A DNA stretch of 37,508 nucleotides from Actinomycetota bacterium (lineage in GTDB: Bacteria; Actinomycetota; Thermoleophilia; BMS3ABIN01): positions 1 to 37,508 of the forward strand of contig JACRMB010000009.1 of the NCBI GenBank assembly GCA_016235065.1, given 5' to 3'. Below the pieces are notes generated by a model, which searched no databases, was not told the DNA's origin, and worked only from the letters and a program-made list of their open reading frames with translations. The position numbers and the translations under genes are program-made. Below, piece after piece: positions 3,569 through 36,532 of the stretch. Positions within the stretch are counted from its first letter, which is position 1. Each line of letters begins with the position of its first letter.

Positions 3569-3589
3569 TCGGGGACTCGCCCTTCCTTC

Positions 3590-3598
3590 TGGTAAGAT
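3590..3598 (+). promoter_or_regulatory. Candidate extended -10 promoter for a leaderless transcript
   Basis: TGG-TAAGAT forms an extended -10 element (TGn plus a -10 hexamer with one mismatch). Transcription would begin about 7 bases downstream, at or next to the ATG at 3606, and no Shine-Dalgarno is visible before that ATG. No convincing -35 is present. This is compatible with a leaderless mRNA for the asparagine-synthase-like gene, but it is a pattern match only. Confidence 0.3.
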
Positions 3599-3605
3599 AT
3601 TTCCC

Positions 3606-9378: not shown

Positions 9379-9422
9379 ATGAAAAACCTGTTATGTATTA
9401 CTGGATGAAAGTCCCTGAATGA
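9379..9422 (+). other. Two nested mini-ORFs coupled by ATGA overlaps in a leader
   Basis: An ATG at 9379 opens M-K-N-L-L-C-I-T-G and ends in the TGA at 9406-9408. That TGA overlaps a second ATG (9405) opening M-K-V-P-E, whose TGA (9420-9422) overlaps the ATG of the radical SAM gene at 9419. AGGG at 9366-9369 could serve the first ATG. The two ATG contexts are alike (ATGAAAAACCTGTT versus ATGAAAATCCTGTT), so a local duplication of the gene's 5' end is another explanation. Translation is not proven. Confidence 0.3.
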
Positions 9423-10843
9423 AAATCCTGTTCCTGTATCCGAATATCGCACGGGCCCGTTCTCCCCAGGTTGGGTTGAGCTCGCTGGCAGGCACCCTCG
9501 AACGCGAGGGCCACGACTGCCGCATCGTCGACATCACCTTCCTGGAGGACCACGAGGTCGCCGGTGTCTATCGGCGCGCCCTGGAGGAATACAAGCCCGA
9601 CCTTATCGGCGTCTCCTGCCGCAGCACCGAGTGGGAGACGGCGCAGGCGATGCTGCGCATGGCCGATCCCGGCGTGCCGGTTATAGCCGGAGGGCCGCAT
9701 CCGACCATCGCCCCAGAGGAAGTCATCGCCGACGAGCGCGTCGACATGCTGGTGCGCGGCGAGGGCGAGGAGTCGATCATCGACCTGATCGACCGCATCG
9801 AGAGCGGCGCCGACCTGACCGACATGCCCAACCTCTGGATCAAGAAAGACGGCGAGATATTCCGCAACGACGTCCGGCCGCTGATCCAGGACATGGACGA
9901 GCTGGCCATGCCCCGCTGGGACATCTGGGACGAGCGCCACTTCCGCGAGCACTACCAGCAGGTGTTCAGCCCCGATGCCAAGATATTCGGCGACCTGGAG
10001 ACTTCCCGCGGTTGCCCGTATTCCTGCCCCTATTGCCTGACCCCGGTCATGCAGAAGCTGTACAAGGGCAAGGGAAAGTACCACCGTGAGAAATCCGCCA
10101 AGCGAATCATCGCCGAGGTGGAGAAGTTCATCCAGGACAAGAACATCGATTACGTCCGCTTTGTGGACGAGACCTTCATCCTCAACAAGAAGCGCCTGCG
10201 CGAGTTCTGCGAGATGTACAAGGAGATCCACCTGCCCTTCTCGTTCAGCACCCGCCCCGAGACGGTGAGCGACGAGATGATGAGACTGCTTGCCGACGCC
10301 GGCGCCCGGGCCGTATCATTCGGGCTGGAATCGGGCAATGAGCAGTATCGCCGGGAGATGCTCAACCGCCGCACCAAACAGCAGGAAGTCATCGACGCCG
10401 TGGCCCTGGCCAAGAAATATGATGTGAAGACCTTCGCCTTCGTGATGATCGGGCTGCCCCATGAGACCCGCGAGCTTATCCAGGACACAATGGAACTCAT
10501 CCATCTGCTCAACCCGGACATCTTCCAGATAACGATCTTTTATCCGTTCGAGGGAACGCCTTTCTACGATTATTGCCTGAAGGAAGGGCTGATGACCAGG
10601 GATCACGAGCGGCTCACCCAGATATGGAAAGGGTCGGTGCTCGACCAGCCCGGCCTGCCAAGCGACTACCTGATCAGACTACGTGAATTGATGCTGGCAT
10701 TTGCAACAAAAAGACATGAACTGTGGCCGCTCATGTATTTTTTAGAGAAGCATCCCATTGCATTCAAAGCCTGGAGTCTCTCAAAGAGGATTCGCAATCG
10801 CATGATGCGCAGCCGACGGAAACCATCATGGATGAGCGCCTGA
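9419..10843 (+). CDS. Cobalamin-binding-domain radical SAM protein (B12-rSAM 1)
   Basis: A 474-aa protein with an N-terminal Rossmann-like B12-binding domain (about 1-150; M-K-I-L-F-L-Y-P-N, and the A-G-G-P-H-P-T motif at 90-96). A radical SAM TIM barrel follows with its [4Fe-4S] ligands Cys199, Cys203 and Cys206 in C-P-Y-S-C-P-Y-C. The classical D-x-H-x-x-G cobalamin motif is absent, as in BchE-like members. Family members methylate unreactive carbons or phosphorus, or rearrange rings. It is less similar to the other three B12-rSAM proteins here than they are to each other. Base composition falls from about 60% G+C to 42-45% after position 10680, so the last 50 or so codons look like part of the neighbouring low-G+C segment. 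It is convergent with the beta-helix gene, 15 bases apart. Confidence 0.85.
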   Translation: MKILFLYPNIARARSPQVGLSSLAGTLEREGHDCRIVDITFLEDHEVAGVYRRALEEYKPDLIGVSCRSTEWETAQAMLRMADPGVPVIAGGPHPTIAPEEVIADERVDMLVRGEGEESIIDLIDRIESGADLTDMPNLWIKKDGEIFRNDVRPLIQDMDELAMPRWDIWDERHFREHYQQVFSPDAKIFGDLETSRGCPYSCPYCLTPVMQKLYKGKGKYHREKSAKRIIAEVEKFIQDKNIDYVRFVDETFILNKKRLREFCEMYKEIHLPFSFSTRPETVSDEMMRLLADAGARAVSFGLESGNEQYRREMLNRRTKQQEVIDAVALAKKYDVKTFAFVMIGLPHETRELIQDTMELIHLLNPDIFQITIFYPFEGTPFYDYCLKEGLMTRDHERLTQIWKGSVLDQPGLPSDYLIRLRELMLAFATKRHELWPLMYFLEKHPIAFKAWSLSKRIRNRMMRSRRKPSWMSA

Positions 10844-10858
10844 TATCCCGAATCAGGG

Positions 10859-12310
10859 TTATACTTCTGGCGGAAGACCCGGATAGTAGTATTGGATGTC
10901 GCAGGAATCCTGGGATTTCGCGTAGACCCAGCTGCGAAATGAACTCACATCCATTGGAACCAGGGCTTTGGTCGTCGCTATTTTCGAGCCATTTGATGCC
11001 GCGATATTTCCTACGCCATATGGAAATTGAGTAGTAGTCATAACGCCAGCGCCATGATAATTAGCGACCAGATTCACATTCTTTGCCAGGGTGCCTCCGG
11101 TATTTGTTATTTGCCAGTCGAGTGAAAGTTCACGGTTTTGATAGTCGGCTAGATTTTCCCAGTAAACTGAAGTCAGTGAGAGGCTCAGGGACGGACTAGC
11201 GCAATCCCAGCTGTTCTGACTGGTGAACGGATGGGAATCCTGCCCACCTGGGAAAGCAAAGGCTGAATCGCAGAAACCATCAATATTCAAATCGATGCAA
11301 CCTTCGCTCGGCTCGTCATATTCTCTCCAGTAGTTGCCGCCACCGCCAGACGGCAGATTAAATACATTATTCATGCCGCCTGATGCGCTAATCTGGAATT
11401 CAGCAATTCCCATAAAATTATTTTGATACACCTCATTCGTGCCGGCGCCATCAAAGTAAATACCATTGTTCGTTCCCGAAATCGTATTCCCCGAGATGCT
11501 GTTATGGTGGCTTTGCCCATGAAGGTAGATCGCTGCATCAATGGTAGGAATAATAGGAGGTATCGGATCCGGAAGTACTTTATCAGTAGAGATCTCATTG
11601 TCTGTGATTACGTTGTAACTGTCGGAATCATAAAGAGTTATCGCATTACGGTTATTGGTTAAGGTATTACCGGTGATTGTGTTGCCATCACCGAAGTCGT
11701 GAATGTAGATTCCTCGTTGGAAATCAGTCACAGTATTGCCGGCGATATAGTTATGCGTACTTGTGTAGCCGATACAGAAGCCGGTGTCGGCGCCATTATT
11801 CCTTATATTATTGTTTGTGAGCACGTTGTTGTGGGCGCCAGTGAGAGATATTCCTGCACCTTCGACATTAATCACGACGTTGTCGGTGACTATATTGTTA
11901 TTGGCATAAAGGAGGTTGACGCCATAATGATAATTTTGAAAGATGAAGTTTTTAACTGTTACGCCGGTAACTCGCGTGATGGTCACGGCGTCATTGCTTG
12001 TAGAAACAAAAAACTTATTTAACGTGAGTGTATGTCCATTTCCATCAAGCGTGATGTAGTTGCTGTCAATATATATCTCAACGTCATTTAAGTCAGTCGT
12101 CAGCGTGCAGGTCTTGAGTGGCTCATTCCAGATTCCGATCTGTGTGCAATTGCCTCCAGTGGAGTCATCAAGAACGTATAATTTTTCCTCGGTTTCAGCT
12201 GATCCTGCAGGCATGCTGCCAAATCCCCAAAAAAATACTCCACCCATCATTAAGACTGCACTGAATAAATACTTCAGCGTTGCTGAGACACAATTGACCA
12301 ATGCTTTCAC
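10859..12310 (-). CDS. Secreted NosD-like right-handed beta-helix protein
   Basis: A 483-aa protein translated from the GTG at 12310-12308, which has a strong AGGAGGGGG ribosome site 5 bases upstream. It opens with a Sec signal peptide (hydrophobic core about 12-32, likely cleavage after A-G-S-A near 39). Residues about 65-320 are parallel beta-helix repeats of the NosD/PbH1 type (recurrent N-x-I-T-G-N-T and N-G-I-Y motifs). A N-Y-W-x-x-Y-D segment typical of NosD-like proteins follows, with a D-x-N-x-D-G-x-C-D stretch. The last 105 or so residues form the same C-terminal domain as in the propeller/Ig protein at the window start (Y-W-E-N, R-E-L-S, ending P-G-L-P-P). It is the only minus-strand gene inside the large plus-strand cluster. 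Beta-helix proteins of this type bind or cleave polysaccharide or serve as surface proteins; no catalytic residues can be assigned. Confidence 0.8.
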   Translation of the reverse strand: MKALVNCVSATLKYLFSAVLMMGGVFFWGFGSMPAGSAETEEKLYVLDDSTGGNCTQIGIWNEPLKTCTLTTDLNDVEIYIDSNYITLDGNGHTLTLNKFFVSTSNDAVTITRVTGVTVKNFIFQNYHYGVNLLYANNNIVTDNVVINVEGAGISLTGAHNNVLTNNNIRNNGADTGFCIGYTSTHNYIAGNTVTDFQRGIYIHDFGDGNTITGNTLTNNRNAITLYDSDSYNVITDNEISTDKVLPDPIPPIIPTIDAAIYLHGQSHHNSISGNTISGTNNGIYFDGAGTNEVYQNNFMGIAEFQISASGGMNNVFNLPSGGGGNYWREYDEPSEGCIDLNIDGFCDSAFAFPGGQDSHPFTSQNSWDCASPSLSLSLTSVYWENLADYQNRELSLDWQITNTGGTLAKNVNLVANYHGAGVMTTTQFPYGVGNIAASNGSKIATTKALVPMDVSSFRSWVYAKSQDSCDIQYYYPGLPPEV

Positions 12311-12460
12311 TTTTGCCCCCTCCTGTTACATGAAAGCTATTTAACTACATATGTTTTTTGTCACATGATGAGTAATCTTATAGATTTTAAAAATTTTGCA
12401 TATACAGGAATTCCCTGAATTCGTGTCTCCTAATATGCGTATAAAGATTTTTGTATTCGA

Positions 12461-12515
12461 CTCATTGAATGAGCGTGAACGATCGTGACCGATTGTTTGT
12501 CACTGCTTCGTAGTG
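12461..12515. promoter_or_regulatory. Cluster of inverted and direct repeats, operator-like
   Basis: Three repeat structures abut within 55 bases. CTCATT-G-AATGAG (12461-12473) is a perfect inverted repeat. CGTGAACGAT and CGTGACCGAT (12474-12483, 12484-12493) are tandem direct repeats with one mismatch, containing the palindrome ACGATCGT. CACTGC-TTC-GTAGTG (12501-12515) is a hairpin with one G.T pair, flanked by ATTGT (12492-12496) and ACAAT (12520-12524), which also pair. The last structure sits in the promoter spacer, a classic repressor position. No regulator gene is in the window. Confidence 0.4.
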
Positions 12516-12524
12516 GTATACAAT
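12497..12524 (+). promoter_or_regulatory. Sigma-70-type promoter for the second radical SAM block
   Basis: TTGTCA (12497-12502, 5 of 6 to the -35 consensus), a 16-base spacer, then TACAAT (12519-12524, 5 of 6 to the -10 consensus). Transcription would start near 12531, about 60 bases before the TTG start at 12590. It is the best-matched two-box promoter I found in the window, and an inverted repeat overlaps it. Confidence 0.5.
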
Positions 12525-12589
12525 TGAAAATTGAATGATCAGATTCTATTTTTAATAACAAACCCTTCTGCCAGATTGAGGCGATCTGA

Positions 12590-14038
12590 TTGAATAAAGT
12601 CACATTGGTTTTCCCCCGCCTTAAGCGTGAGAGCAACGCCTGGGCGCCATTGCCGCTGCAGGCCCTGGCGGCACCGTTGATTGAAGATGGCTTCCAGGTG
12701 GAGATCGTCGACGGCCGGGTCATCCATCCGCACCTTCCGCGCATATTGCAGGCTGTCCGCGGTTCGCTCTATGTCGGACTCTCGGTGATGACCGGCTGGC
12801 AGATTCACGACGCCATCGCCATCTCCCGCGCGGTCAAGGATGCTTATCCCGACATCCCGGTGGTCTGGGGCGGCTATCACGCCAGCATGCTCCCGGAGCA
12901 GACGCTGGCGGAGAGCTACATCGATTATGTCATCCGCGGCCAGGGGCAACTGGCGGCGGTGGAACTGGCAAGGCGGCTGAGGGATGGCGAATCGGTTGAA
13001 GGAGTGACCGGGCTGTGTTACCTGAAGGATGGCGCAGCTGTTGTCGCCGACTACCCCAAGCTGGTGGATATCGACCAGTTCCCGTCTACCCCGTACAACA
13101 TCATCGACATGGAAAAGTACATGGTGCCCGATCTTGGCGAGCGCACGATGAAATATTTTTCCTCCCAGGGCTGTCCATTCGGTTGCGGTTTTTGCGCTGA
13201 GACTTCCATGTACGGGCGCGGCTGGGTTGGTTTCTCCCCGGAGCGGGTGGTAGATGACCTGGAGCGGCTGCAAAAGGATTACCGGGTCGACGCCATCGAT
13301 TTTGCCGACACCAATTTTTTCGTTAGCAAGAAGCGGGTGCGGGCCATCTGTGAGGGCATCCTCGAGCGCGGTCTCGACCTGAAGTGGGCTGCCGACGTTC
13401 GCACCAAGCAATTCATCGATTTCCCTGAAGACCTGAGGCAGCTGGTCTACGACGCCGGCTGCCGGCGGCTGCTGCTCGGCGCTGAATCGGGTTCGCTGGC
13501 GGCACTCAAGCAGATCGGCAAACAGACTACAGTGGACGATACCCTGCACGTGGCGCGCGTCTGCGACCGGCTCGGTATTATCGCCCGCTTCACGACCATG
13601 TTCGGTTTTCCTGGTGAGCCGGAGAAGGACATCGAGGCCACTTTGAGGATGATCGAGGGGATCAAGGCCATAAACGAGGATTTTGAGGTCCACGGTTTCT
13701 TTTTCGCTCCCTACCCTGGGGCTCCCATGTACGACGAGGCGGTCAGGCTCGGCTTCCGGCCTCCGGAGACCCTGGAGGGCTGGGCTGATTTCGACCTCAC
13801 CGAGCTGCACACGCCCTGGGTCGATCCCGTCTACAAGGAAAAAGTGGACATGATCATAGATTTCTACATGCCGTTCGCCTCGCCGAGCCCCGATCTGCGC
13901 CGGCGCATGGCTGCAGGCGGGGTCAAAGGCAATGCCTACAAAGCCATGCACAAGCTGGCGGCCTGGCGCGTAGGCAAACGTGACTTCAGGGCGCCGCTTG
14001 AGTGGCAGCTGAAAAAACGGCGCGCGCGGAGGAAGTGA
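12590..14038 (+). CDS. Cobalamin-binding-domain radical SAM protein (B12-rSAM 2)
   Basis: A 482-aa protein from a TTG start with GAGG 8 bases upstream. It has an N-terminal B12-binding domain (about 1-150; V-V-W-G-G-Y-H-A-S at 91-99, E-Q at 103-104) without D-x-H-x-x-G. The radical SAM core has Cys195, Cys199 and Cys202 (C-P-F-G-C-G-F-C) and a C-terminal extension. The linker I-I-D-M-E-K-Y-M (171-178) is shared with B12-rSAM 3, and the glycine-rich motif with B12-rSAM 3 and 4, so these three are close paralogues. The family performs radical methylation or ring chemistry on lipids, tetrapyrroles, antibiotics and sugars. The neighbouring methyltransferase starts 4 bases after its stop, so the two are cotranscribed. 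A substrate on the glycan or its lipid is inferred from context only. Confidence 0.85.
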   Translation: MNKVTLVFPRLKRESNAWAPLPLQALAAPLIEDGFQVEIVDGRVIHPHLPRILQAVRGSLYVGLSVMTGWQIHDAIAISRAVKDAYPDIPVVWGGYHASMLPEQTLAESYIDYVIRGQGQLAAVELARRLRDGESVEGVTGLCYLKDGAAVVADYPKLVDIDQFPSTPYNIIDMEKYMVPDLGERTMKYFSSQGCPFGCGFCAETSMYGRGWVGFSPERVVDDLERLQKDYRVDAIDFADTNFFVSKKRVRAICEGILERGLDLKWAADVRTKQFIDFPEDLRQLVYDAGCRRLLLGAESGSLAALKQIGKQTTVDDTLHVARVCDRLGIIARFTTMFGFPGEPEKDIEATLRMIEGIKAINEDFEVHGFFFAPYPGAPMYDEAVRLGFRPPETLEGWADFDLTELHTPWVDPVYKEKVDMIIDFYMPFASPSPDLRRRMAAGGVKGNAYKAMHKLAAWRVGKRDFRAPLEWQLKKRRARRK

Positions 14039-14042
14039 AGCC

Positions 14043-15065
14043 ATGAGCGATTTGAATAACGACAGGCCTGGCGACAGCACTGCAGGCGGCGGCGATGCGA
14101 TGAGAGGCACCGACCTGCCGACTTTCGAAGGAGCTGAGCTTCAGGTCGACTGCGCTGTCTGTGGCAGTGCCCTGCAGCGGCCGATGTGGTCGGTCAGGGA
14201 CACGCTTCTCGGCTCAACCGAAAAATACAACATCGTCCGCTGCCCGGAATGTGGCACCCTGCGGATGTCGCCCCGCCCTGACTTCAGCGAGCGGCGCGCC
14301 TCCTTTGCCGATACTTATCCGCTTTTCGACTGGGCCCTGGGCCGCAAGCGCCCCCAGGCCGAGCAGCGCATCGGGCGCTTTGCAGCCCAGATAAACGAGA
14401 TCAACCGCCGCCAGCGTCCTGGCAGGCTGCTCGATGTGGGCTGCGGTGACGGCTATTTCATGCTGGGCATGCAGCGCCGCGGCTGGGAAGTGACCGGGAT
14501 GGAACTTCACGAGAAAGTGGCGGCCTATGCCCGCGATGAGCTGGGTCTCGACGTGCGAGGCGGCGCCGAGCACGAGGTCGACTGGGACGGAGAATATGAC
14601 TGCATCACGCTTCTGGGAGTCATCGAGGATCTTGACGATCCCAACGCCTGCCTGAAGCGGTGCCATGAGCATCTGGCCGATGGCGGCCTGCTGGTGGTCC
14701 AGACCCACAACATAGAGTGCTGGGAAGCGAAGTTCTTCGGCCCCCACTGGTTCAATGTCGAGGCCCCGCGCCACGTCTGGCATTTCTCGCCGGACACGCT
14801 CGCCAGGCTACTGGCCGGCAACGGTTTCCGGCAGGAAGCCCTGCTACATTTCGGCGCGGCCTATGTCACCGAGCGCAGCATTGAGAACCGCCGGGGCAAG
14901 GTCTTCCCGTCTTCGACATTCGATCACGTGCTTCGCAAGGCGGTCGTGACGCCCGCGGCGAAGATCGCGCCGAAACTGGGCCAGGGAATCATGATCGAAT
15001 CCTACAGCCGTAAGGGCGGGGAACAGTCCGCCGCCGTTCCGGCCGCAACCGGGAGCCGGGGATGA
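14043..15065 (+). CDS. Class I SAM methyltransferase with N-terminal zinc-ribbon-like motif
   Basis: A 340-aa protein. The N-terminus has two C-x-x-C knuckles (Cys37/40 and Cys67/70), likely a zinc ribbon. A Rossmann methyltransferase domain follows, with motif I L-L-D-V-G-C-G-D-G at 129-137 and the acidic residue of motif II (M-E-L-H) near 154. It resembles Methyltransf_23-type proteins common in glycan loci. The ATG at 14043 has GGAGG 9 bases upstream, and the stop overlaps the next ATG (ATGA). Likely acceptors are sugar hydroxyls or carbons of the repeat unit, but position and product cannot be deduced. A related gene at 19331 shares the same layout, so the cluster has two such methyltransferases. 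Confidence 0.8.
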   Translation: MSDLNNDRPGDSTAGGGDAMRGTDLPTFEGAELQVDCAVCGSALQRPMWSVRDTLLGSTEKYNIVRCPECGTLRMSPRPDFSERRASFADTYPLFDWALGRKRPQAEQRIGRFAAQINEINRRQRPGRLLDVGCGDGYFMLGMQRRGWEVTGMELHEKVAAYARDELGLDVRGGAEHEVDWDGEYDCITLLGVIEDLDDPNACLKRCHEHLADGGLLVVQTHNIECWEAKFFGPHWFNVEAPRHVWHFSPDTLARLLAGNGFRQEALLHFGAAYVTERSIENRRGKVFPSSTFDHVLRKAVVTPAAKIAPKLGQGIMIESYSRKGGEQSAAVPAATGSRG

Positions 15066-16522
15066 AGTTCGTCTTCTTCTTCCCTCTGACCAACGAGAAT
15101 AACCTGCACAAGGTGAGTCCACCGCTGAGCGTGATGGCCTGTGCCGCACCACTGATACGCGATGGCATCGAGGTGGAAATAGTAGACGCCCGGGTCGAGC
15201 CCGATTACGAGAAGATGGTCATCGAGAAGATGGCCGATGCCGATCTGCTGGGCGTCAGCTCCATGACCGGTTACCAGATCGCCGACGGCCTCAAGGTGTC
15301 GGCTGCCGTCAAGGCGAAGTACCCGGATAAGCCGGTCGTCTGGGGCGGTTACCATCCGTCGCTGCTCGCCGACCAGACCGTACTCGATCCCAATGTCGAC
15401 CTGGTTGTCAGGGGCCAGGGGGAGAATGCCTGCCTCGACCTCGCCCGTCATCTCAGGGGTGAACTGACCCTTGAGCAGATCGATGGCCTCACCTGGCTGC
15501 GCGACGGTGAAGTCGTGAATAATCCCCAGCGCCGTGTCGCTGATATCAACGATTTCCCCGCCATGCCCTACGACATGATCGACATGGAAAAATATATGGA
15601 CTTCAACCGCCGGGTACATGGTGATACCCGCCGTGCTGTCAGCTATGTCTCCAGCTTCGGCTGCCCTCATGCCTGCGGTTTCTGCTCGAACCCCGAGGCC
15701 TATGGGCAGAAGTGGAAGGGCCTCGCCGCGGAGCGCGTTGTTTCCGAGGTCACCGGGCTGGTGGAGCGTTATGACCTGGAGCGGGTCTATTTCGACGACA
15801 ACAATTTTTTCGCTTCCAAGCGGCGGGTGCGCGAGATGTGCCAGGGGTTCCTGGATTCACCGCTAAAGTTCGAGTGGTTCGCCACGATCAGGCCGACACA
15901 GGTTCTTGCCTACAGCGACGACGACCTGCGGCTCATCCGCGACTCGGGCTGCACCAAGTTCATGATGGGGGCCGAGTCCGGCGACGATTCCATCCTTGAG
16001 CTGATCAACAAGGGCAATGAGGCCAAGGACGTGCTGGCGGCGACGCGCCGTTGCCGCGACTTCAACATCCAGCCTTCATATGTCTTCATCCTCGGATTCC
16101 CCACGGAGAGCTGGGAGCAGATGAAGGTGACCCTCGACTTCATGAAGGAGCTCAAGGAGATCTACGCCGACACCCGCACGACCACACTGTTCTTCACGCC
16201 GTTTCCCGGTACGCCACTGACAAGGCTCGGCAGTGAGAAAGGCTTCACCCTGCCGCAGACCCTCGGCGACTGGGCTGTCTACGACGCCCGCACAGTGCAG
16301 ACTCCCTGGATCACCCGCAAACAGAAGATCAAGGTGAAGCAGATAGCCGATTTCTATCTTCCCTGGGCCTATCCCAACCAGCTGGCCAGGGAAAAGGTGG
16401 CCCGCGGCAAGTTCAAGCCGTTCTACAAGCTGTTCACCCTTGCCTGCAAGGCCAGGGCCAGCCTCGGTTTCTACGGATTGCCCTGGGAATGGAAGATGGC
16501 CAGGTGGCTAAAGCTCACCTGA
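15062..16522 (+). CDS. Cobalamin-binding-domain radical SAM protein (B12-rSAM 3)
   Basis: A 486-aa close paralogue of B12-rSAM 2. The B12-binding domain carries V-V-W-G-G-Y-H-P-S (92-100). The linker is M-I-D-M-E-K-Y-M (172-179), and the cluster ligands are Cys201, Cys205 and Cys208 (C-P-H-A-C-G-F-C). The start ATG overlaps the methyltransferase stop by 4 bases, so the two are translationally coupled. The C-terminal region, including P-F-P-G-T-P-L near 380 and a basic tail, also matches the two neighbours. The run of paralogues suggests successive or alternative modifications of related substrates rather than redundancy; that is inference. Confidence 0.85.
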   Translation: MKFVFFFPLTNENNLHKVSPPLSVMACAAPLIRDGIEVEIVDARVEPDYEKMVIEKMADADLLGVSSMTGYQIADGLKVSAAVKAKYPDKPVVWGGYHPSLLADQTVLDPNVDLVVRGQGENACLDLARHLRGELTLEQIDGLTWLRDGEVVNNPQRRVADINDFPAMPYDMIDMEKYMDFNRRVHGDTRRAVSYVSSFGCPHACGFCSNPEAYGQKWKGLAAERVVSEVTGLVERYDLERVYFDDNNFFASKRRVREMCQGFLDSPLKFEWFATIRPTQVLAYSDDDLRLIRDSGCTKFMMGAESGDDSILELINKGNEAKDVLAATRRCRDFNIQPSYVFILGFPTESWEQMKVTLDFMKELKEIYADTRTTTLFFTPFPGTPLTRLGSEKGFTLPQTLGDWAVYDARTVQTPWITRKQKIKVKQIADFYLPWAYPNQLAREKVARGKFKPFYKLFTLACKARASLGFYGLPWEWKMARWLKLT

Positions 16523-16610
16523 GCTGTATCCGAACTGATGTTGATGGCTGGGCGAGGATGAGCCGCAAGGCAATCCGGCCCGGAACTGGCACAAGATTCC
16601 CGACTATTAC

Positions 16611-16616
16611 TATAAT
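16611..16616 (+). promoter_or_regulatory. Candidate -10 box (TATAAT) before B12-rSAM 4
   Basis: A perfect TATAAT at 16611-16616 in the 103-base gap 16523-16625. The only -35-like sequence is CTGGCA (16586-16591) at a long 19-base spacing. The start codon is at 16626, so a transcript from here would be nearly leaderless. The GGAAGG ribosome site (16617-16622) overlaps the expected start point, so this gene may instead be read through from upstream. Confidence 0.3.
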
Positions 16617-16625
16617 GGAAGGCGT

Positions 16626-18158
16626 ATGACCGTGACCGAGAGGAAAACCAGGTACGACCGCCGCGGCAAGGACAAGATCGTTCTCTTCTTTCCGACGCCT
16701 GCTTATGGCCACTATCGCATCGAGCTGGGGCTTGCCCTTGCGGTGATCGCGGCTCCCCTGGAAGGGAAGTACGACCTGCACCTGATCGACGAGCGGGTCA
16801 CGCCCAACTACGAGCAGGAAGTACTGAAGCATCTGGACGGCGCCGTCTGCGTAGGCATCAGTTCGATCACCGGCTTTCAGATCAAACGCGGCATCGCCAT
16901 GGCCCGCAAGGTACGCGCCATGAATCCCGAGGTGCCGATTGTCTGGGGTGGCTACCATCCGTCGCTTTTCCCGGAGCAGTGCTGCGAGTCCACCGCCTGC
17001 GATATCGTCTGCGTGGGCCAGGGCGACGAGACGTTCAAGGAGATCGTCGAGAGCCTGGTCGCGGGGAATCCGCCAGCAGAGGTCAAGGGAGTCGCCTACT
17101 GGACACCTGAGGGCACGGTCGTCAACGAGCCGCGGCCGCTGACCAACATCAACGACGTTCCGCCGGCGCCCTATCACCTGATGGACGTAAACCGGGCCAT
17201 CGAGCTGAACATGAAGACCAACCACGAGAGCATCCGCACCACGGAGTTCCATTCGAGCCAGGGCTGTCCGGGCAAGTGCGGTTATTGCGCCGACGCCCAG
17301 CTTTACCAGCGCCACTGGACCGGTCTGGATGCCGAGCGCGTGGTCAATGAGGTCGAGCAGCTGGTAAAAACCTACAGGCTCGACCAGGTCAATTTCAGCG
17401 ACGCCAACTTCTTTGCCAACCAGAACCGCGTGCGCGCCATCTGCGAAGGCTTTATCGAGCGCAATCTCAATATTCGCTGGGTGGCTTCCGCGCGCCCTGA
17501 TACATTTCACCGCTACAAGCCGGAGGTGCTGGAGCTTATCCGTAAGGCCGGCTGCAAGCGGGTTATCGTCGGCGCCGAGTCGGCTTCCGAACCGGTCCTG
17601 GAGCTGATCTGCAAGGGGGCCACCGCCGAGGACCACCTGAAGAGCGCCCAGGTCTGCCGCGATTACGGCATCGGTGGTACATTTACTTTCATCACCGGTT
17701 TCCCCCACGCGGCAGGAACGCCGCAGCAGGAGACCACTCAGGACCTGCTCGACTTCATCCAGAAGCTCAAGAAGATACATCCGGATATCCGCACCAAGAT
17801 CTTTGTCTTCACGCCCTATCCGGGGACACCGCTCTACGACCTGTCGGTGAAGTATGGGATGACCGAGCCCAAGTCTCTGGAGGAATGGGCCGACTACAAC
17901 CCGGCGACGCTGATGGAGAGCCAGTGGGTGGAGCCCTGGGAGCGGAAGCTGATTGAGAAGGTGAACGGGTTCTATTATCCGTTCGCCTATCCGGACAGCA
18001 ATATGCAGAAAAGCCTCGCGCACGGGAAGAAGAAGTATGCTTACAAGGTCGTGCATTCGCTCGCGAAGTTCAGGACGGAGCATGGATTCTATGCATTGCC
18101 GTTCGAGTGGGTGCTGTTCAAGACTTTCAAGAAGGGGACGTTTGAGCCGGTAGCTTAG
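16626..18158 (+). CDS. Cobalamin-binding-domain radical SAM protein (B12-rSAM 4)
   Basis: A 510-aa third member of the paralogous group, with an N-terminal extension of about 16 basic residues before the B12-binding domain. The domain has I-V-W-G-G-Y-H-P-S (105-113) and E-Q (117-118). The radical SAM ligands are Cys214, Cys218 and Cys221 (C-P-G-K-C-G-Y-C). The D-M-E-K-Y-M linker of paralogues 2 and 3 is M-D-V-N-R-A here. Extra cysteines occur in the B12 domain (C-C at 119-120, Cys125, Cys129). The ATG at 16626 has GGAAGG 3 bases upstream. The gene ends 12 bases before a large composite inverted repeat that may terminate transcription. Its exact reaction is unknown. Confidence 0.85.
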   Translation: MTVTERKTRYDRRGKDKIVLFFPTPAYGHYRIELGLALAVIAAPLEGKYDLHLIDERVTPNYEQEVLKHLDGAVCVGISSITGFQIKRGIAMARKVRAMNPEVPIVWGGYHPSLFPEQCCESTACDIVCVGQGDETFKEIVESLVAGNPPAEVKGVAYWTPEGTVVNEPRPLTNINDVPPAPYHLMDVNRAIELNMKTNHESIRTTEFHSSQGCPGKCGYCADAQLYQRHWTGLDAERVVNEVEQLVKTYRLDQVNFSDANFFANQNRVRAICEGFIERNLNIRWVASARPDTFHRYKPEVLELIRKAGCKRVIVGAESASEPVLELICKGATAEDHLKSAQVCRDYGIGGTFTFITGFPHAAGTPQQETTQDLLDFIQKLKKIHPDIRTKIFVFTPYPGTPLYDLSVKYGMTEPKSLEEWADYNPATLMESQWVEPWERKLIEKVNGFYYPFAYPDSNMQKSLAHGKKKYAYKVVHSLAKFRTEHGFYALPFEWVLFKTFKKGTFEPVA

Positions 18159-18170
18159 GTATTTGTGGAC

Positions 18171-18246
18171 GGGCCGGGCGGGTTTTTCCCGCCTCCGCTT
18201 AAGCGTCTTCGACAAAACGCTGCGGCGGGAAAAACCCGCCCGGCCC
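18171..18246. repeat. Composite palindromic repeat (perfect 23-bp inverted arms), REP/MITE-like
   Basis: The left arm (18171-18193) and right arm (18224-18246) are perfect reverse complements over 23 bases. Each arm also folds on its own: GGCGGG-TTTTT-CCCGCC at 18177-18193 and GGCGGG-AAAAA-CCCGCC at 18224-18240. The 30-base spacer contains the palindrome CGCTTAAGCG (18196-18205) and an AGCGT/ACGCT pair (18202-18206, 18217-18221). It lies in the gap between two plus-strand genes. It could end transcription or stabilise mRNA ends, and its design resembles dispersed REP or MITE units. Only one copy was seen in this window. Confidence 0.65.
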
Positions 18247-18348
18247 TGCTTTACCCATGGCGCTACCGGCATTGGCGAATTGGCCGACAGCAACATATTT
18301 CATAAACGCTTTTTTATTGAAGCAACCAGCATAACCAGGAGCAACTTG

Positions 18349-19299
18349 ATGTCACTTAAATCCACAGCTAAGTCACTGGTCAAGGACAAGGCGGTCCGGT
18401 CGGCCGAGGTCAATCCGGATTTCCCTTCGCGGATAAATATCGAGCCCACCAACCAGTGCAACCTGCGCTGCAACATGTGCCCGCGCAAGGACCTGACCCG
18501 GCCGGTGGGGGAGATCGATCTCGACCTGTTCGACAAGCTGGCTGAGGAGATATCCCGCCACGAGCCCGCCGAAGTGCGGCTGCATAAGGACGGCGAGCCG
18601 CTGATGGCTCCGAAGATCTTCGAACTGATCGACCACATCAAGACCATCGCCCCGAGCACCCTGCTCAACATGGACACCAACGCCCTCCTGCTGGACGAGG
18701 AGAAGGCGAACAGTATACTCGAGTCGAAGCTGGACATACTGCTCTTCAGCGTCAACGCTGCAACCGCGGATACTTACAAGAAGGTGCGCGGCTCGACCAA
18801 GTACGACCAGGTCATCGCCAATATCGAGCGCTTCCTGGAGATGCGCGCCGCCCGCGGTTATGTCTGGCCCAAGGTCAAGGTGCAGCTGATCGTCATGGCC
18901 GAGACCAAGAACGAGATCGGCCTCTTCAAGGAGCAATGGGGTCCTCACGAAGTCGACGTGCTGCTGATCCCGGCGATCAACTGGGGCGGCCTGAAACCGG
19001 ACGTCAAGAGCCTGATGGCGTTGCCCAAGAAACGCTATCCCTGCACCTTCCTCTGGAATTCTTTTTCCGTGAACTGGGACGGCAAGGTCAGTTTCTGTAA
19101 CGTCGATTTCAACCACCTGGGCATCATCGGCGACCTGCGCGAGCAGACCATCGAGGAAGTCTGGAAGAGCCCCGAGTTCGAGCGCTACCGCAGCCTGCAC
19201 AAGGCCGGGCGCTGGAGCGAGATCGACCTCTGCCGCGACTGCAATTACTGGGCATATACGCGCAACGTCTGGTATCCCACCGGGAAGGGTTGGAAGTGA
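18349..19299 (+). CDS. Radical SAM protein with SPASM-like C-terminal cysteines
   Basis: A 316-aa protein. The start at ATG 18349 is chosen because CAGGAG lies 8 bases upstream; a longer frame from 18163 would translate the palindromic repeat and is rejected. The radical SAM motif C-N-L-R-C-N-M-C gives Cys37, Cys41 and Cys44. The C-terminus has a SPASM-type auxiliary cluster arrangement (C near 238, V-S-F-C-N-V-D near 256, then L-C-R-D-C-N-Y-W near 300). There is no B12-binding domain. SPASM proteins modify peptides, act as dehydrogenases on sugars and aminoglycosides, or mature enzymes. In this setting oxidation or epimerisation of a sugar is plausible. It is followed 31 bases later by the second methyltransferase. 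Confidence 0.8.
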   Translation: MSLKSTAKSLVKDKAVRSAEVNPDFPSRINIEPTNQCNLRCNMCPRKDLTRPVGEIDLDLFDKLAEEISRHEPAEVRLHKDGEPLMAPKIFELIDHIKTIAPSTLLNMDTNALLLDEEKANSILESKLDILLFSVNAATADTYKKVRGSTKYDQVIANIERFLEMRAARGYVWPKVKVQLIVMAETKNEIGLFKEQWGPHEVDVLLIPAINWGGLKPDVKSLMALPKKRYPCTFLWNSFSVNWDGKVSFCNVDFNHLGIIGDLREQTIEEVWKSPEFERYRSLHKAGRWSEIDLCRDCNYWAYTRNVWYPTGKGWK

Positions 19300-19330
19300 C
19301 CACGGCGGATAACATGAGCTTGGAAGACAT

Positions 19331-20386
19331 TTGAGTCCGGCGATCAACGTCCACAGCAGCTCCCTCAAAGGCGCCTGCGACCTCTGTGGCGGCAATCATT
19401 TCGATCTGCTGTTCACCGGCCATGACCGGCTCTTCGGCATCGAGGGCGAGTTCCCGCTGGTCCGCTGCCAGGACTGCGGCCTGGTATTCGTGAACCCGCG
19501 CCCGTCGTTCGAAGAGATGGGGCGGTTCTATCCCCAGGACGATTACGACCTTTACAACAAGGCTGCCGGCCTCAAGGACCGGAGCATGGATGAGCTGGGC
19601 CGCCTGCTGGGCCCCCGCAAGGGACGCATCGACAAGTATCGCGACCACGGGCGGCTGCTGGACATCGGTTTCGGCGACGGCTCTTTCCTCTATTTCATGA
19701 AGCAGTGCGGCTGGGATGTCGCTGGCGTCGATTACAACCAGAAGATGGTCGAGCTTGTCCGGGACGAGCTGGAGATCGATGCGGTTCAGGGACAGCTGGA
19801 GGACGCCGGTTATCCCGACGATTCCTTCGACGTTGTCACCCTCTGGGGCGTGCTCGAGCACGTGCAGAGCCCGAGCCAGACCATCGAGGAGATCAGCCGC
19901 ATCACTGGCGACGGCGCCCTGCTGGTCATCTACACCCAGAACGCCGCCGCCCCCGAAGCCCGCTGGCTGGGTGAGGACTGGTTCATCTACGAGGTGCCGC
20001 GCCACCTTTATGATTTCACGGAAGATTCCCTGGCGAAGCTACTGGCCAAGTCCGGCTTCTGCATCGCCGAGACCGTTTACGAGACGCCGCTCTACTATTG
20101 CCAGATGAACTGGCAGTACTTCAAGGAACGACGGCTGGGCCGCAAGAATGATGTGATCCACAATCCGACCATGGTCGACCGCCTGGCGACCAAGGCACTC
20201 TCGTTCTACAGGCGTTTTGCCAATGGCAGCCCCCGCTCGTCGGCGATGACAGTATATGCGGTTAAGCGGGATTCGTGCCGCCAGGATGCGGCGCGCGCCG
20301 GCGCACAGGCGGCGGATGTAGCAGCAGTTACTGCCGGCGCCACGAACGGATCAACCTCAAATGAGGTGCAAAGTGCAGATCAATAA
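19331..20386 (+). CDS. Class I SAM methyltransferase with N-terminal zinc-ribbon-like motif (second copy)
   Basis: A 351-aa protein with the same layout as the methyltransferase at 14043. Cys pairs lie at 16/19 and 46/49, then N-P-R-P, then motif I L-L-D-I-G-F-G-D-G at 109-117 and V-D-Y near 133. W-G-V-L-E-H-V is the typical motif after beta 4. The start is TTG 19331 with GGAAG about 6 bases upstream. A six-codon mini-ORF (M-S-L-E-D-I, ATG at 19314) ends in a TGA overlapping this TTG, recalling the coupled mini-ORFs at 9379. The alanine-rich tail (about 320-345) is probably disordered. The gene overlaps the next start by 14 bases. It is predicted to methylate a glycan component; the acceptor is unknown. 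Confidence 0.8.
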   Translation: MSPAINVHSSSLKGACDLCGGNHFDLLFTGHDRLFGIEGEFPLVRCQDCGLVFVNPRPSFEEMGRFYPQDDYDLYNKAAGLKDRSMDELGRLLGPRKGRIDKYRDHGRLLDIGFGDGSFLYFMKQCGWDVAGVDYNQKMVELVRDELEIDAVQGQLEDAGYPDDSFDVVTLWGVLEHVQSPSQTIEEISRITGDGALLVIYTQNAAAPEARWLGEDWFIYEVPRHLYDFTEDSLAKLLAKSGFCIAETVYETPLYYCQMNWQYFKERRLGRKNDVIHNPTMVDRLATKALSFYRRFANGSPRSSAMTVYAVKRDSCRQDAARAGAQAADVAAVTAGATNGSTSNEVQSADQ

Positions 20387-21440
20387 ACTCGGAAACACAG
20401 GGCTCGAAGTCTCGCGCCTGGGGCTGGGCGGCATACCCTTCCAGTACATCTCCCAGAAGGAGACCAACGAGATCATCGGCGCCGCCCGCGAGCGCGGCGT
20501 GAACCTCATCTATACCTCGCGGATGTATCGCGACTCCGAGAACAAGATCGGTTTGGCGGTGCGAGGCGAGCGCGACCAGGTCGTGCTGGGCACCAGCACC
20601 CACAAGCGCAAGAAGACTGAAGCCCTCAAGGAGGTCCGTGACAGCCTGGGAAACTTCGGCGTCGACGCCATCGACATCTATTCCCTCCACAATGTGCTGA
20701 CGCTCTCAGTGCTCAAGGAGATCATGAGTCCGGGCGGGGCCTATCACGCCCTCGAGGAGATGCGCAATGCCGGCTACATCAAACAGGTGGGTATCAGCGC
20801 TCACCAGCCGGAGACGATCCTGACGGCCCTGGAGATGGCTGCTTTCGACGTGGTCGAGTTCCCGCTGAACTATGTCGATCGCGAGGCTGCCGAAGGTACC
20901 GAGAGGCTGCTGGAGGAGCTGCAGAAGCGCGGCATCGGTTTCGTCTCGATCAAGCCGATGGTCTTCGGTTACGCCGGCAATGCCAACATCGCCATGCGTT
21001 ATGTCTTCAACTGCAAGCCCGACGCCACCATCGTCGGCACCTATAATCTGGACGAACTCAACCAGAACCTCGACGCCGAGGCCAATCCGGCCCCGGTGAG
21101 CCGCGAAGAGATCCTGGACACCATCGCCGAGTCGGAGAAGAAGTGCTTCAAGGTCTTCTGCCGCCGCTGCGATACCTGTGTCGCCTGCCCCCAGGGCATC
21201 GACATCAAGACCATCCTGCGCTGGTACGAGTATTTCGACCGCTATCATTCCTGGGACTGGGCGCGCGACCATTACCACTCCCTCAAGCCGGACCTTTCCG
21301 CCTGCGACAACTGTGGCATCTGCGAGCGTGATTGCCCGTACCACATCCCGATCAAGCGCGAGTTCGCGCGGGCGAAGATCGACCTCCTGCCCCGGCGCAG
21401 CCCCACGCGCCTGGTCAAAAAGAAACTCTTTGGCAATTAA
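20373..21440 (+). CDS. Aldo/keto reductase-like protein with ferredoxin domain, catalytic tetrad incomplete
   Basis: A 355-aa protein. The GTG at 20373 is preferred because GAGGTG (20363-20368) lies 4 bases upstream; the in-frame ATG at 20361 has no ribosome site. The N-terminal (beta/alpha)8 domain (about 1-240) matches the COG1453-type aldo/keto reductases. The C-terminus carries two 4Fe-4S motifs: C261-x2-C264-x2-C267-x2-C270-P and C309-x2-C312-x2-C315-x3-C319-P. Of the catalytic tetrad Asp-Tyr-Lys-His, Tyr52 and His106 are present. The Asp position is Tyr47 (L-I-Y-T-S where D-T-A is usual), and the Lys position is Ser75 (G-T-S-T where A-T-K is usual). The G-T-Y-N-L-D-E-L cofactor motif remains. 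It may be a ferredoxin-linked electron donor to the radical SAM enzymes, or an altered reductase. Confidence 0.75.
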   Translation: MQINKLGNTGLEVSRLGLGGIPFQYISQKETNEIIGAARERGVNLIYTSRMYRDSENKIGLAVRGERDQVVLGTSTHKRKKTEALKEVRDSLGNFGVDAIDIYSLHNVLTLSVLKEIMSPGGAYHALEEMRNAGYIKQVGISAHQPETILTALEMAAFDVVEFPLNYVDREAAEGTERLLEELQKRGIGFVSIKPMVFGYAGNANIAMRYVFNCKPDATIVGTYNLDELNQNLDAEANPAPVSREEILDTIAESEKKCFKVFCRRCDTCVACPQGIDIKTILRWYEYFDRYHSWDWARDHYHSLKPDLSACDNCGICERDCPYHIPIKREFARAKIDLLPRRSPTRLVKKKLFGN

Positions 21441-21452
21441 CCGGTCGGGCTG

Positions 21453-23270
21453 ATGGATTCCGCGGTCAAGCCTCCGGAAGCACCAGGCAGGTCCGGCGGT
21501 GGCAGCCGGCTTGATGCCGCTGACTCATCCCGTCTTCACCAGGTCCTGCGGATCTCAATCGCCCTGACCCTGGCTGCTGGGCTCTTTCATCTTTTGAACC
21601 TGGTCGGTTCCGGGCGCGGCGGCTTTGGTCCGGCACTGATCACGCCCTTCCGCTTCACTTTTGCTGTTTCGTGGCTGCTTCTGATAACTGGCTGGATGCT
21701 CGAGTGGCGGCGATTGCGCACCGGCGGCTCCGGGAGTCACCCGGGCGGGTCGGCTCTGCCCCGCATCGACCGGACCGATGCTCTTATCGCTGGTTTCGTA
21801 GCAGTCTTCCTCCTGCGGGGCGCTTTGACCCCGGAGACCTTTTCCATCACCCTTAACTGGGCAGTCACTGGCGCTGGCATGTTCTTCCTGGTGCGTTTCG
21901 GGACCAGGAGCGCCGCCGATGTACGGTTTATGCTCCTGGCGCTGGTCGGTTCGTCTTTGGTTCTGGCCATATACGGCCTCGGCGAATACGCGCTCAAGGC
22001 CAATCCGCTCTTCGACTCCATCCAGGTGGAAGCCATCGGCATCGACAAGCGGATCGCCGCCAGCGATCAGTTCTACCGTATCCGTACCCTGGTGGGCCAT
22101 CCCGGTTTTGCCGGAGCCATCCTCCTGGGCGCGATGCCGCTCACCTTCCTGGTCTTCTGGCGCCGGCGCCTGCTGCTGGCGGCGTCGCTGGTCTGCCTCA
22201 GCGCCGGCATATTCCTGTCATTCAGCCGCGGCTCGTGGCTCATCGCGGTGCTGGTGCTTTTCCCGGTCGCGCTCATCTGGTCCCGCAGCTGGGTTCGCCG
22301 TAACCTCAAGTGGCTGGTGCCAGCGGCGCTGATACCGGCGGCCATCATCGCTTTCGACTATTTCAGCCGGGAGGAGGTGTCGGCCAATCTGGGCGAGGTC
22401 ATCCGCGAAAAGGGACTGCACTGGACCCTGGGGAAGGATGGGCCGATCCGGCTAACCAGTGGCGAGTCTTACGGCGTCCAGCCGTATAACAAGTTCGTCT
22501 ACTTCGATGTGGCCGATGATTTCCATCGCGGTGGCGACGACGGCCCGGTGACTATTGTCGTCCATTTCTTCGACCGCGGCATGGGCGCCCTCAGGATCGA
22601 ATACGATTCCATGACCGAAGGCTCCGGTGGCGGGCAGGGCGCCAACAAGCCTACTCCTTCCATCAACAAGACCAACAGTCATACCTGGTCCACCGTGGCG
22701 TTCTATATCAGGGACCCGCGTTTTGAGGGCCGCCTGAACTACGGAGCCGACTTCAGGGTGGTCGACGATGACAGCCTGATGACACTCGACGAAGTAGTGG
22801 TGCAGAAAGGCAGGCTGAAGCTTCCAGGGGTCGTGGCCCAGCAATGGTCATCACGGGCGGCTTCGATGAATACCCGGGCGGAGTTCCTTCCTTTGACCAG
22901 GGATGTGCTCGCGGAGGATCCCCTGGGGGTCGGCCTGTTCAACACTCCCGGTACCGAGCATCACGCTGTTGACAGCCTGCCGCTGACCTGGATGATGGAG
23001 TTCGGCTGGCCCGGCCTGCTGCTTATCCTCGGCCTGGTGGCTTTGATCGTCAGGGAATGCTGGTTCGCCTGGAAGCAGCCACGGGAGCCGGCTGTGGTAT
23101 TGCTGCTTTCACTGGTGTTGATCCTGCTGCATGGCGGCCACCTGATGATCCTTTATGACAAGCCCAGCCTGGTGCTGGCGGCTGGCGTTGCGGCGCTCTA
23201 CGCGGACATCCGCCCCTGGCGGCGGGGAGGGGCTGCAATCCGCGTATCGAATCAGGACTGCATGGTCTAG
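21453..23270 (+). CDS. O-antigen polymerase/ligase-like membrane protein with carbohydrate-binding-like insert
   Basis: A 605-aa protein with about 10-11 hydrophobic segments. Residues 203-275 hold the Wzy/WaaL core, including V-G-H-P-G-F-A and the S-F-S-R-G-S-W motif (256-262) of the O-antigen ligase family, which polymerises or transfers lipid-linked glycan outside the membrane. The large outer loop is exceptional. Residues about 322-452 form a separate beta-rich domain (Y-F-D-V-A-D-D-F; V-T-I-V-V-H-F-F-D-R-G; T-W-S-T-V-A-F-Y-I; A-D-F-R-V) like the carbohydrate-binding-type modules attached to glycoside hydrolases. The loop then returns to normal and ends with W-M-M-E-F-G-W-P-G-L (513-522). 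The ATG at 21453 has only a weak ribosome site. It is the first of three polymerase/ligase-type genes. Confidence 0.75.
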   Translation: MDSAVKPPEAPGRSGGGSRLDAADSSRLHQVLRISIALTLAAGLFHLLNLVGSGRGGFGPALITPFRFTFAVSWLLLITGWMLEWRRLRTGGSGSHPGGSALPRIDRTDALIAGFVAVFLLRGALTPETFSITLNWAVTGAGMFFLVRFGTRSAADVRFMLLALVGSSLVLAIYGLGEYALKANPLFDSIQVEAIGIDKRIAASDQFYRIRTLVGHPGFAGAILLGAMPLTFLVFWRRRLLLAASLVCLSAGIFLSFSRGSWLIAVLVLFPVALIWSRSWVRRNLKWLVPAALIPAAIIAFDYFSREEVSANLGEVIREKGLHWTLGKDGPIRLTSGESYGVQPYNKFVYFDVADDFHRGGDDGPVTIVVHFFDRGMGALRIEYDSMTEGSGGGQGANKPTPSINKTNSHTWSTVAFYIRDPRFEGRLNYGADFRVVDDDSLMTLDEVVVQKGRLKLPGVVAQQWSSRAASMNTRAEFLPLTRDVLAEDPLGVGLFNTPGTEHHAVDSLPLTWMMEFGWPGLLLILGLVALIVRECWFAWKQPREPAVVLLLSLVLILLHGGHLMILYDKPSLVLAAGVAALYADIRPWRRGGAAIRVSNQDCMV

Positions 23271-23288: not shown

Positions 23289-23368
23289 TCATCATGAGGA
23301 GTTTTTTCGGCATATTCAGCAGGGCAAGCCTGGCCGGTGGTGCGTCCAGCGCCATTTCCCGGAGGACT

Positions 23369-33122: not shown

Positions 33123-33165
33123 GGACGCCCTGCAATCGACCCTGCAGCCCGCTTCCGGAGCGGTA

Positions 33166-36451: not shown

Positions 36452-36532
36452 AGTGTCTCCTCCGTCTTCAGATCGTTGAGTTGATAATATATCGCTACCG
36501 GCCGCGACGACTGACCGGAACGGGCCGGAAAA
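36452..36532 (-). promoter_or_regulatory. rmlD-rmlB intergenic region with weak hairpin and -10-like box
   Basis: The 81-base gap has the rmlB ribosome site near its left end. A CCGGCC/GGCCGG pair (about 36498-36503 and 36523-36528) could form a hairpin, without a T-run on the minus strand. Minus-strand TATATT/TATTAT sequences in the A+T-rich patch near 36484-36494 could be a -10 for rmlB alone. Read-through from rmlD is equally possible. Confidence 0.25.

Follow-up and report, generated by a model that had tools for sequence, protein, structure and literature searches.

What might a bacterium build with four cobalamin-type radical S-adenosylmethionine (SAM) enzymes encoded close together among glycan genes? 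The question is raised by a stretch of 37,508 nucleotides (the window) from an Actinomycetota bacterium (GenBank assembly GCA_016235065.1, contig JACRMB010000009.1), which is contig 9 (C9) of a 2.37-Mb genome that is 98.9% complete. Positions 9419-21440 hold a block of eight genes, all open, in frame and intact, for four cobalamin-type radical SAM proteins (B12rSAM1-4), two methyltransferases (MT1 and MT2), a further radical SAM protein (the SPASM protein) and an aldo/keto reductase (AKR)-like protein. On balance, we read this block as the conserved sugar-tailoring core of a Wzx/Wzy wall polysaccharide pathway with attachment by a LytR-CpsA-Psr (LCP) protein; its reactions and their site of action we infer. 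The first-pass annotation of this DNA had listed the eight genes but overlooked a minus-strand gene that splits the block between B12rSAM1 and B12rSAM2. The features of this region are as follows.

9419-10843 (+): B12rSAM1; PF02310 66.7 bits, PF04055 99 bits; orthologues 73-79% identical
10859-12310 (-): NosD-type beta-helix secreted protein with the lineage C-terminal domain (see below), low GC; stands where relatives have hyp641/B12rSAMx
12590-14038 (+): B12rSAM2; PF02310, PF04055; orthologues 75-94%
14043-15065 (+): MT1, zinc-ribbon class I methyltransferase; Methyltransf_23; C37/C40/C67/C70 invariant
15062-16522 (+): B12rSAM3; PF02310, PF04055; AlphaFold2 (AF2) model; fold nearest AprD4 and OxsB, Z 30-31
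16626-18158 (+): B12rSAM4; PF02310, PF04055; orthologues 78-97%
18349-19299 (+; listed open reading frame start 18163): SPASM protein, a radical SAM protein whose one auxiliary cluster domain has four Cys and is of BtrN/Twitch type; best PDB match BtrN
19331-20386 (+): MT2, zinc-ribbon class I methyltransferase; Methyltransf_23; C16/C19/C46/C49 invariant
20361-21440 (+): AKR-like protein, C-terminal 4Fe-4S motifs; PF00248, PF13534; tetrad Asp replaced by Tyr, Lys by Ser

Conservation of the block in one bacterial family

Orthologues were searched for in 396 genomes of the phylum and, more closely, in 18 relatives of the same family and in other families of the class, with the relatives' genes predicted by a codon-usage caller. 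The order B12rSAM2-MT1-B12rSAM3-B12rSAM4-SPASM-MT2-AKR, followed by the gene of a Wzy-like polymerase (Wzy1), is found in full in 11 genomes from five genera, counting the window, with additional genes inserted in some; in G010, of a sixth genus, it can be followed until the contig ends. Within the family, identity of the block orthologues is 67-90% overall, with single B12rSAM proteins reaching 97%, and an orthologue or large fragment of B12rSAM3 is present in at least 14 of the 18 relatives (73-93% identity). No orthologue was found outside the family among the 396 genomes, six outside genomes having matches of 29-35%; in the remaining families of the class, the B12rSAM3 search returned either nothing or matches at 32-35%. 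The named carriers are metagenome-assembled genomes labelled Thermoleophilia, Gaiellales or Actinomycetes, including SURF_19 and BMS3Abin01, and the carrier organisms are one family of uncultured subsurface Thermoleophilia.

The pairwise ratio of nonsynonymous to synonymous divergence (dN/dS) is about 0.03-0.24 across the eight-gene block, with the adjoining Wzy genes diverging faster; for the four B12rSAM proteins, dN is about 0.015-0.23 against a dS of about 0.6-1.5. Judged from these ratios, the block is under strong purifying selection. Conservation in 11 genomes together with such low ratios rules out chance, and accidental co-location of the block genes was rejected on the synteny. In a tree made with a quick method, in which long branches lie outside the B12rSAM1-5 clades, B12rSAM1, 2, 3, 4 and 5 form separate clades with the genera grouping together in each, a topology consistent with vertical descent of paralogues kept since before the genera split. 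At the place of the beta-helix gene, several relatives carry an additional B12rSAM (B12rSAMx) and an uncharacterised protein of about 640 residues; the latter is lipoprotein-like, lies between B12rSAM2 and B12rSAMx (G002, L031:13955-15880), has no Pfam match and is absent from the window.

Orthologues were not seen outside a glycan locus, whereas distant homologues of about 30% identity do occur elsewhere. Homologues of 29-35% identity in G364, G343 and G142 adjoin Wzx, glycosyltransferase, WcaJ or methyltransferase homologues. Another family of the class (f3) has a recurring trio of B12 radical SAM genes with no recognised glycan genes nearby, two of them alike and one B12rSAM3-like, the middle gene being on the opposite strand (L111 13669-18000, L112 1932-6000, L113 6443-10700). 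Plasmids of Streptomyces, Nocardia and Calothrix (L118, L119, L120, L121) share a conserved operon in which radical SAM and B12 radical SAM genes lie with LD-carboxypeptidase-like, amino-acid-ligase-like and short-chain dehydrogenase/reductase genes, possibly an undescribed natural-product pathway. With glycan, f3 and plasmid settings side by side, the wider branch is functionally mixed.

The block lies in a polysaccharide locus

In one relative (G002), a single 398-kb contig carries the whole locus of about 65 kb without a break. The genes for RmlA, C, D and B come first, then a polymerase, glycosyltransferases (GTs), Wzx and two Wzy; after the block stand a pair of asparagine-synthase-type amidotransferases, Wzx, a surface protein, B12rSAM5, two GT39-like proteins, a DegT aminotransferase, a SPASM protein, a GT2 and B12rSAM6; SMR-like small membrane proteins, an MT, B12rSAM7, a GT2 and a phosphorylase follow, and the end is made up of Wzx, an MT, a GT4, a WcaJ-type sugar transferase, a GT4, Wzy, a GT4 and an LCP protein. 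By synteny, the window is one end of this locus, and contig 8 read in reverse (C8) holds the remaining half, its orthologues arranged as in G002; the junction of C8 and C9 is thus deduced from G002. Bac_transf, Polysacc_synt, Wzy_C, GT2/GT4 and LytR_cpsA_psr families were found in the window and the G002 locus, with orthologues in C8 plus C9. By this gene content, the locus is a Wzx/Wzy-type wall polysaccharide locus with an LCP ligase. Seven of the 11 B12-binding radical SAM proteins of the genome are encoded within these 65 kb. A c-di-GMP-I riboswitch lies on C8 (L057 19661-19745), about 11.5 kb past the LCP end.

Wherever a relative's sequence reaches far enough on the flanks, the genes beside the block are the same, and the full-length G002 locus supplies Rml proteins, an initiating transferase, Wzx, Wzy, GTs and an LCP ligase. 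Membership of the block in a glycan pathway, already proposed by the first-pass annotation, is therefore very probable. The remaining features of the window are listed below.

2132-3568 (+): Wzx-type flippase; Polysacc_synt PF01943 above cut-off
3525-5501 (+): AsnB1, asparagine-synthase-type amidotransferase with catalytic Cys (M-C-G-I start near 3606); Asn_synthase, GATase_7
5723-7618 (+): AsnB2, amidotransferase paralogue, N-terminal catalytic Cys replaced by Ser; VSGIAG start; TIGR01536 above cut-off
7615-9300 (+): GT39/ArnT-like membrane glycosyltransferase; PMT_2
21453-23270 (+): Wzy-like polymerase 1 (Wzy1); sub-threshold Wzy_C; position conserved
23294-24826 (+): Wzy-like polymerase/ligase 2; Wzy_C above cut-off
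24676-26268 (+): Wzx-type flippase 2 (true start near 24823); PF01943
26265-33122 (+): five GT2/GT4-type glycosyltransferases; at 31051-32016, a second radical SAM/SPASM protein
32914-35448 (+): Wzy/O-antigen-ligase-like membrane protein with TPR tail (true start near 33076)
35450-37441 (-): RmlB and RmlD homologues (dTDP-rhamnose synthesis), from sequence; RmlC and RmlA next in relatives (synteny, RmlA Pfam match)

Sequence and fold of the B12rSAM proteins

Pfam curated cut-offs and NCBIfam equivalog cut-offs were applied to the block proteins, and residue checks took in the readable orthologues. B12rSAM1, 2, 3 and 4 all exceed the Pfam cut-offs for both B12-binding and Radical_SAM, the C-x3-C-x2-C motif is retained in every readable orthologue (C201/C205/C208 invariant), and the GGxH of the B12 domain is also invariant, in agreement with the architecture first described for them. 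The three paralogues called close, B12rSAM2, 3 and 4, are indeed related but share just 36-39% pairwise identity, and B12rSAM1 is about 25% identical to B12rSAM3. None of the eight block proteins reached an NCBIfam equivalog cut-off. The best scores of B12rSAM1-4 were for BchE (153.7 of 481) and HpnJ (131-148 of 577.6), about a quarter to a third of the cut-off, and BchE, HpnJ, HpnR, PhpK and related equivalogs gave at most about half of it, mostly a third or less; firm placement in an unrelated known clade was thus not found. A tetrapyrrole function was rejected because the BchE score is far under the cut-off. TIGR04295, labelled 'B12_rSAM_oligo' by NCBI curators, has the same domain make-up, and B12rSAM1-4 score 39-96 bits on it against a cut-off of 400.

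The AF2 model of B12rSAM3 (predicted local distance difference test score, pLDDT, 92; predicted template modelling score, pTM, 0.89) contains Rossmann strands at 2-7, 37-42, 62-66, 92-95 and 114-116, a hairpin at 143-153, a barrel and C-terminal helices. Class 1 enzymes combine a five-strand Rossmann B12 domain with a beta-hairpin, a barrel and C-terminal helices (PMC13331322), which is the fold seen in the model. Motif, domains and this modelled fold suggest that B12rSAM1-4 are class 1 cobalamin-type radical SAM enzymes, with cobalamin binding predicted. With CobS encoded and three cobalamin riboswitches present in the genome, the cell probably has access to B12.

Among solved structures, the nearest to the model is AprD4 (6FD2; Z 30.9, 3.1 Å, 417 residues), the radical SAM 1,2-diol dehydratase of apramycin biosynthesis, whose substrate is an aminoglycoside sugar; OxsB (Z 30.3), MgmA (28.8), CysS (27.6), TsrM (26.6) and TokK (22.2) follow. 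OxsB, TsrM, TokK and CysS share domain order and fold with B12rSAM3 (Z 22-30) at an identity of 16-18%. Searched with the AprD4 profile NF033070 for true AprD4 sequences to serve as tree references, the 396 genomes and the controls yielded none. AprD4 is 20% identical to B12rSAM3, its sequence match being confined to the radical SAM domain, whereas the phmmer alignment of TokK extends through part of the B12 domain and sets TokK Trp76 opposite Tyr71. CysS likewise has Trp at this cobalt-facing column, which holds W/Y/F/L/M in B12rSAM2-4 (an aromatic residue in B12rSAM3 and 4, a mixture in B12rSAM2) and is variable elsewhere. Since the column varies, it does not discriminate methylation from dehydration, and it was dropped as a methylase criterion.

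Partner enzymes

MT1 and MT2 share one zinc-ribbon architecture, each with four invariant N-terminal cysteines (C-x2-C-x26-C-x2-C). The SPASM protein, which probably starts at 18349, has Radical_SAM and SPASM Pfam matches and exactly four auxiliary cysteines (232, 250, 295 and 298 of the 316-aa form), invariant in orthologues. It was rightly called a radical SAM protein, but in place of a full SPASM domain it has the single-cluster BtrN/Twitch pattern: its auxiliary domain aligns ungapped with that of BtrN, 4/4 Cys included. This BtrN-type cluster suggests a predicted activity as a sugar-alcohol dehydrogenase. BtrN (4M7T), the 2-deoxy-scyllo-inosamine dehydrogenase of butirosin biosynthesis, is its best PDB match, but overall identity is low and the best NCBIfam match is to the TIGR04317 maturase, below threshold.

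The AKR-like protein matches Aldo_ket_red (PF00248) and Fer4_17 (PF13534), and its clustered invariant cysteines are suited to two 4Fe-4S clusters, as had been noticed, but two of the four canonical catalytic residues are gone. At the positions that we take, from the usual AKR motifs, to be the tetrad (Asp-Tyr-Lys-His), Tyr and His are kept, and Asp is replaced by Tyr and Lys by Ser in 11/11 orthologues; AKR paralogues in relatives (33-35% identity) keep Lys in 4/4 cases and Asp in 3/4. Tetrad loss and cysteine clusters together favour electron transfer over NAD(P)H reduction, so that for this protein a role in relaying electrons via its clusters is more probable than that of a normal reductase. 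Beyond the block, AsnB1 keeps its glutaminase Cys in the readable orthologues, and AsnB2 has Ser at that position in all of its own readable orthologues (G001, G007, G010, G013), a substitution by which AsnB2 probably uses another amine or free ammonia. A UDP-sugar dehydrogenase encoded elsewhere in the genome may supply uronic acid.

Proposed pathway and alternatives

In the pathway that we propose, synthesis would start on a WcaJ-type undecaprenyl-phosphate sugar, with dTDP-rhamnose among the building blocks. Each of B12rSAM1-4 would have its own sugar position or substrate, and at least one of B12rSAM2-4 would most likely transfer a methyl group from SAM via methylcobalamin to an unactivated ring carbon in the manner of GenK and MoeK5. 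A ketone would be formed from a sugar hydroxyl by the BtrN-type protein, MT1 and MT2 would methylate oxygen or a carbon adjoining such a ketone, AsnB1 would amidate a uronic acid, AsnB2 would join a different amine, and the AKR-like protein would relay electrons via its clusters. Candidate sites of action are the nucleotide sugar, the lipid-linked unit or the polymer. That sugars are modified by radical chemistry we consider likely; that at least one B12rSAM member performs C-methylation is favoured by a narrower balance of the evidence. The unusual sugar foreseen by the first-pass annotation thus stands as glycan tailoring, with C-methylation as a possible form of it.

Several observations weigh against this proposal. 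B12rSAM3 has its best single relative, by both sequence (E 3.5e-18, PDB) and fold, in the dehydratase AprD4; the residue under the cobalt is not strictly conserved, even inside B12rSAM2; a cobalamin riboswitch was sought in the locus and none was found; and distant homologues (about 30%) also serve non-glycan operons. With AprD4 as nearest solved relative, C-methylation and deoxygenation are both possible. It is conceivable, though rather unlikely in our judgement, that the B12rSAM proteins are AprD4-like radical dehydratases which take a hydrogen off a sugar diol, expel water and form deoxy sugars together with a partner reductase, the B12-like domain being a structural relic or binding cobalamin without methyl transfer. 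AprD4 ties with OxsB by fold, it is the sole solved relative listed that acts on a sugar, and redox partners (the BtrN-type protein and the AKR) lie inside the block. Yet the four proteins score just 84.8, 68.6, 84.9 and 56.3 bits on the AprD4 profile NF033070 against a cut-off of 500. The likeness to AprD4 is also limited to the radical SAM domain, whereas TokK aligns into the B12 domain, PF02310 is above cut-off with GGxH invariant, and the tetrad of the AKR partner is broken.

Two further explanations move the substrate away from the glycan. Action on the polyprenyl carrier or another lipid, also raised in the first-pass annotation, gained no positive support and is improbable: the lipid profiles HpnJ and TIGR04072 are among the higher NCBIfam scores, and GT2, SMR-type and GT39 genes of the G002 locus hint at polyprenyl-phosphate sugars, but HpnJ stays far under its cut-off, the locus showed no prenyl or hopanoid gene, and seven enzymes are not obviously needed for one carrier. 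More improbable still is a diffusible small molecule made by a block that sits in the polysaccharide locus by chance. The nearest plasmid homologues (about 30%) do share an operon with amino-acid-ligase-like and LD-carboxypeptidase-like genes, but the block is kept between Wzy1 and the AsnB/Wzx genes in relatives with sequence on both sides, and the locus shows no recognisable gene for resistance, export or a carrier protein.

A lineage-restricted C-terminal domain

A C-terminal domain of about 105 residues (YWxSYADYxxRxLSVDY...YPGxxP) occurs in the window at 1548-1880 (+) and 10862-11197 (-). It has 69 matches at E ≤ 0.001 in the same genome and 15-49 in each of 11 same-family relatives; a consensus query detected it in 19/19 family members and in 0 of 99 other genomes of the class, except for one copy resembling contamination. 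The domain ends no more than nine residues from the stop in 25/25 sampled proteins, 24 of which have a signal-peptide-like N-terminus, the remaining one being truncated by a contig end. Its model is an immunoglobulin-like beta-sandwich (pLDDT 88), and Pfam returned sub-threshold CARDB-type matches only. It is a candidate surface-anchoring domain that might, hypothetically, be linked to the wall glycan. We regard as doubtful the far-reaching version in which the polysaccharide carries seven or more different B12-type radical modifications (C-methyl branches, deoxy positions) per repeat unit and also anchors dozens of secreted proteins with this domain.

Relation to known systems and significance

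GenK, GenD1 and MoeK5 act on sugar carbons. In moenomycin, MoeK5 is paired with asparagine-synthase-type amidotransferases that act on a lipid-linked uronic acid, giving a C-methylated uronamide. Moenomycin is the nearest precedent that we can name for a B12 radical methylase with asparagine-synthase-type enzymes, likened by description and not by sequence. GenK and GenD1 (gentamicin) and MoeK5 (moenomycin), all cobalamin radical SAM methylases (PMC8992657), belong to antibiotic clusters with one or two such enzymes, whereas here a wall polysaccharide locus holds seven. Our literature search, which covered open-licence papers only, returned no relevant report of B12 radical SAM enzymes in glycan or O-antigen loci and no description of radical remodelling of wall-glycan sugars.

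The known sugar chemistry of cobalamin radical SAM enzymes is that of antibiotics; here it apparently belongs to the core wall biosynthesis of a bacterial family, carried by several long-kept paralogues. The locus makes the choice between methylation and deoxygenation in the AprD4/OxsB-like branch directly testable. If our explanation is true, it would widen the chemistry of bacterial glycans, tie B12 to wall assembly in deep-subsurface actinobacteria and add new sugar-modifying radical enzymes.

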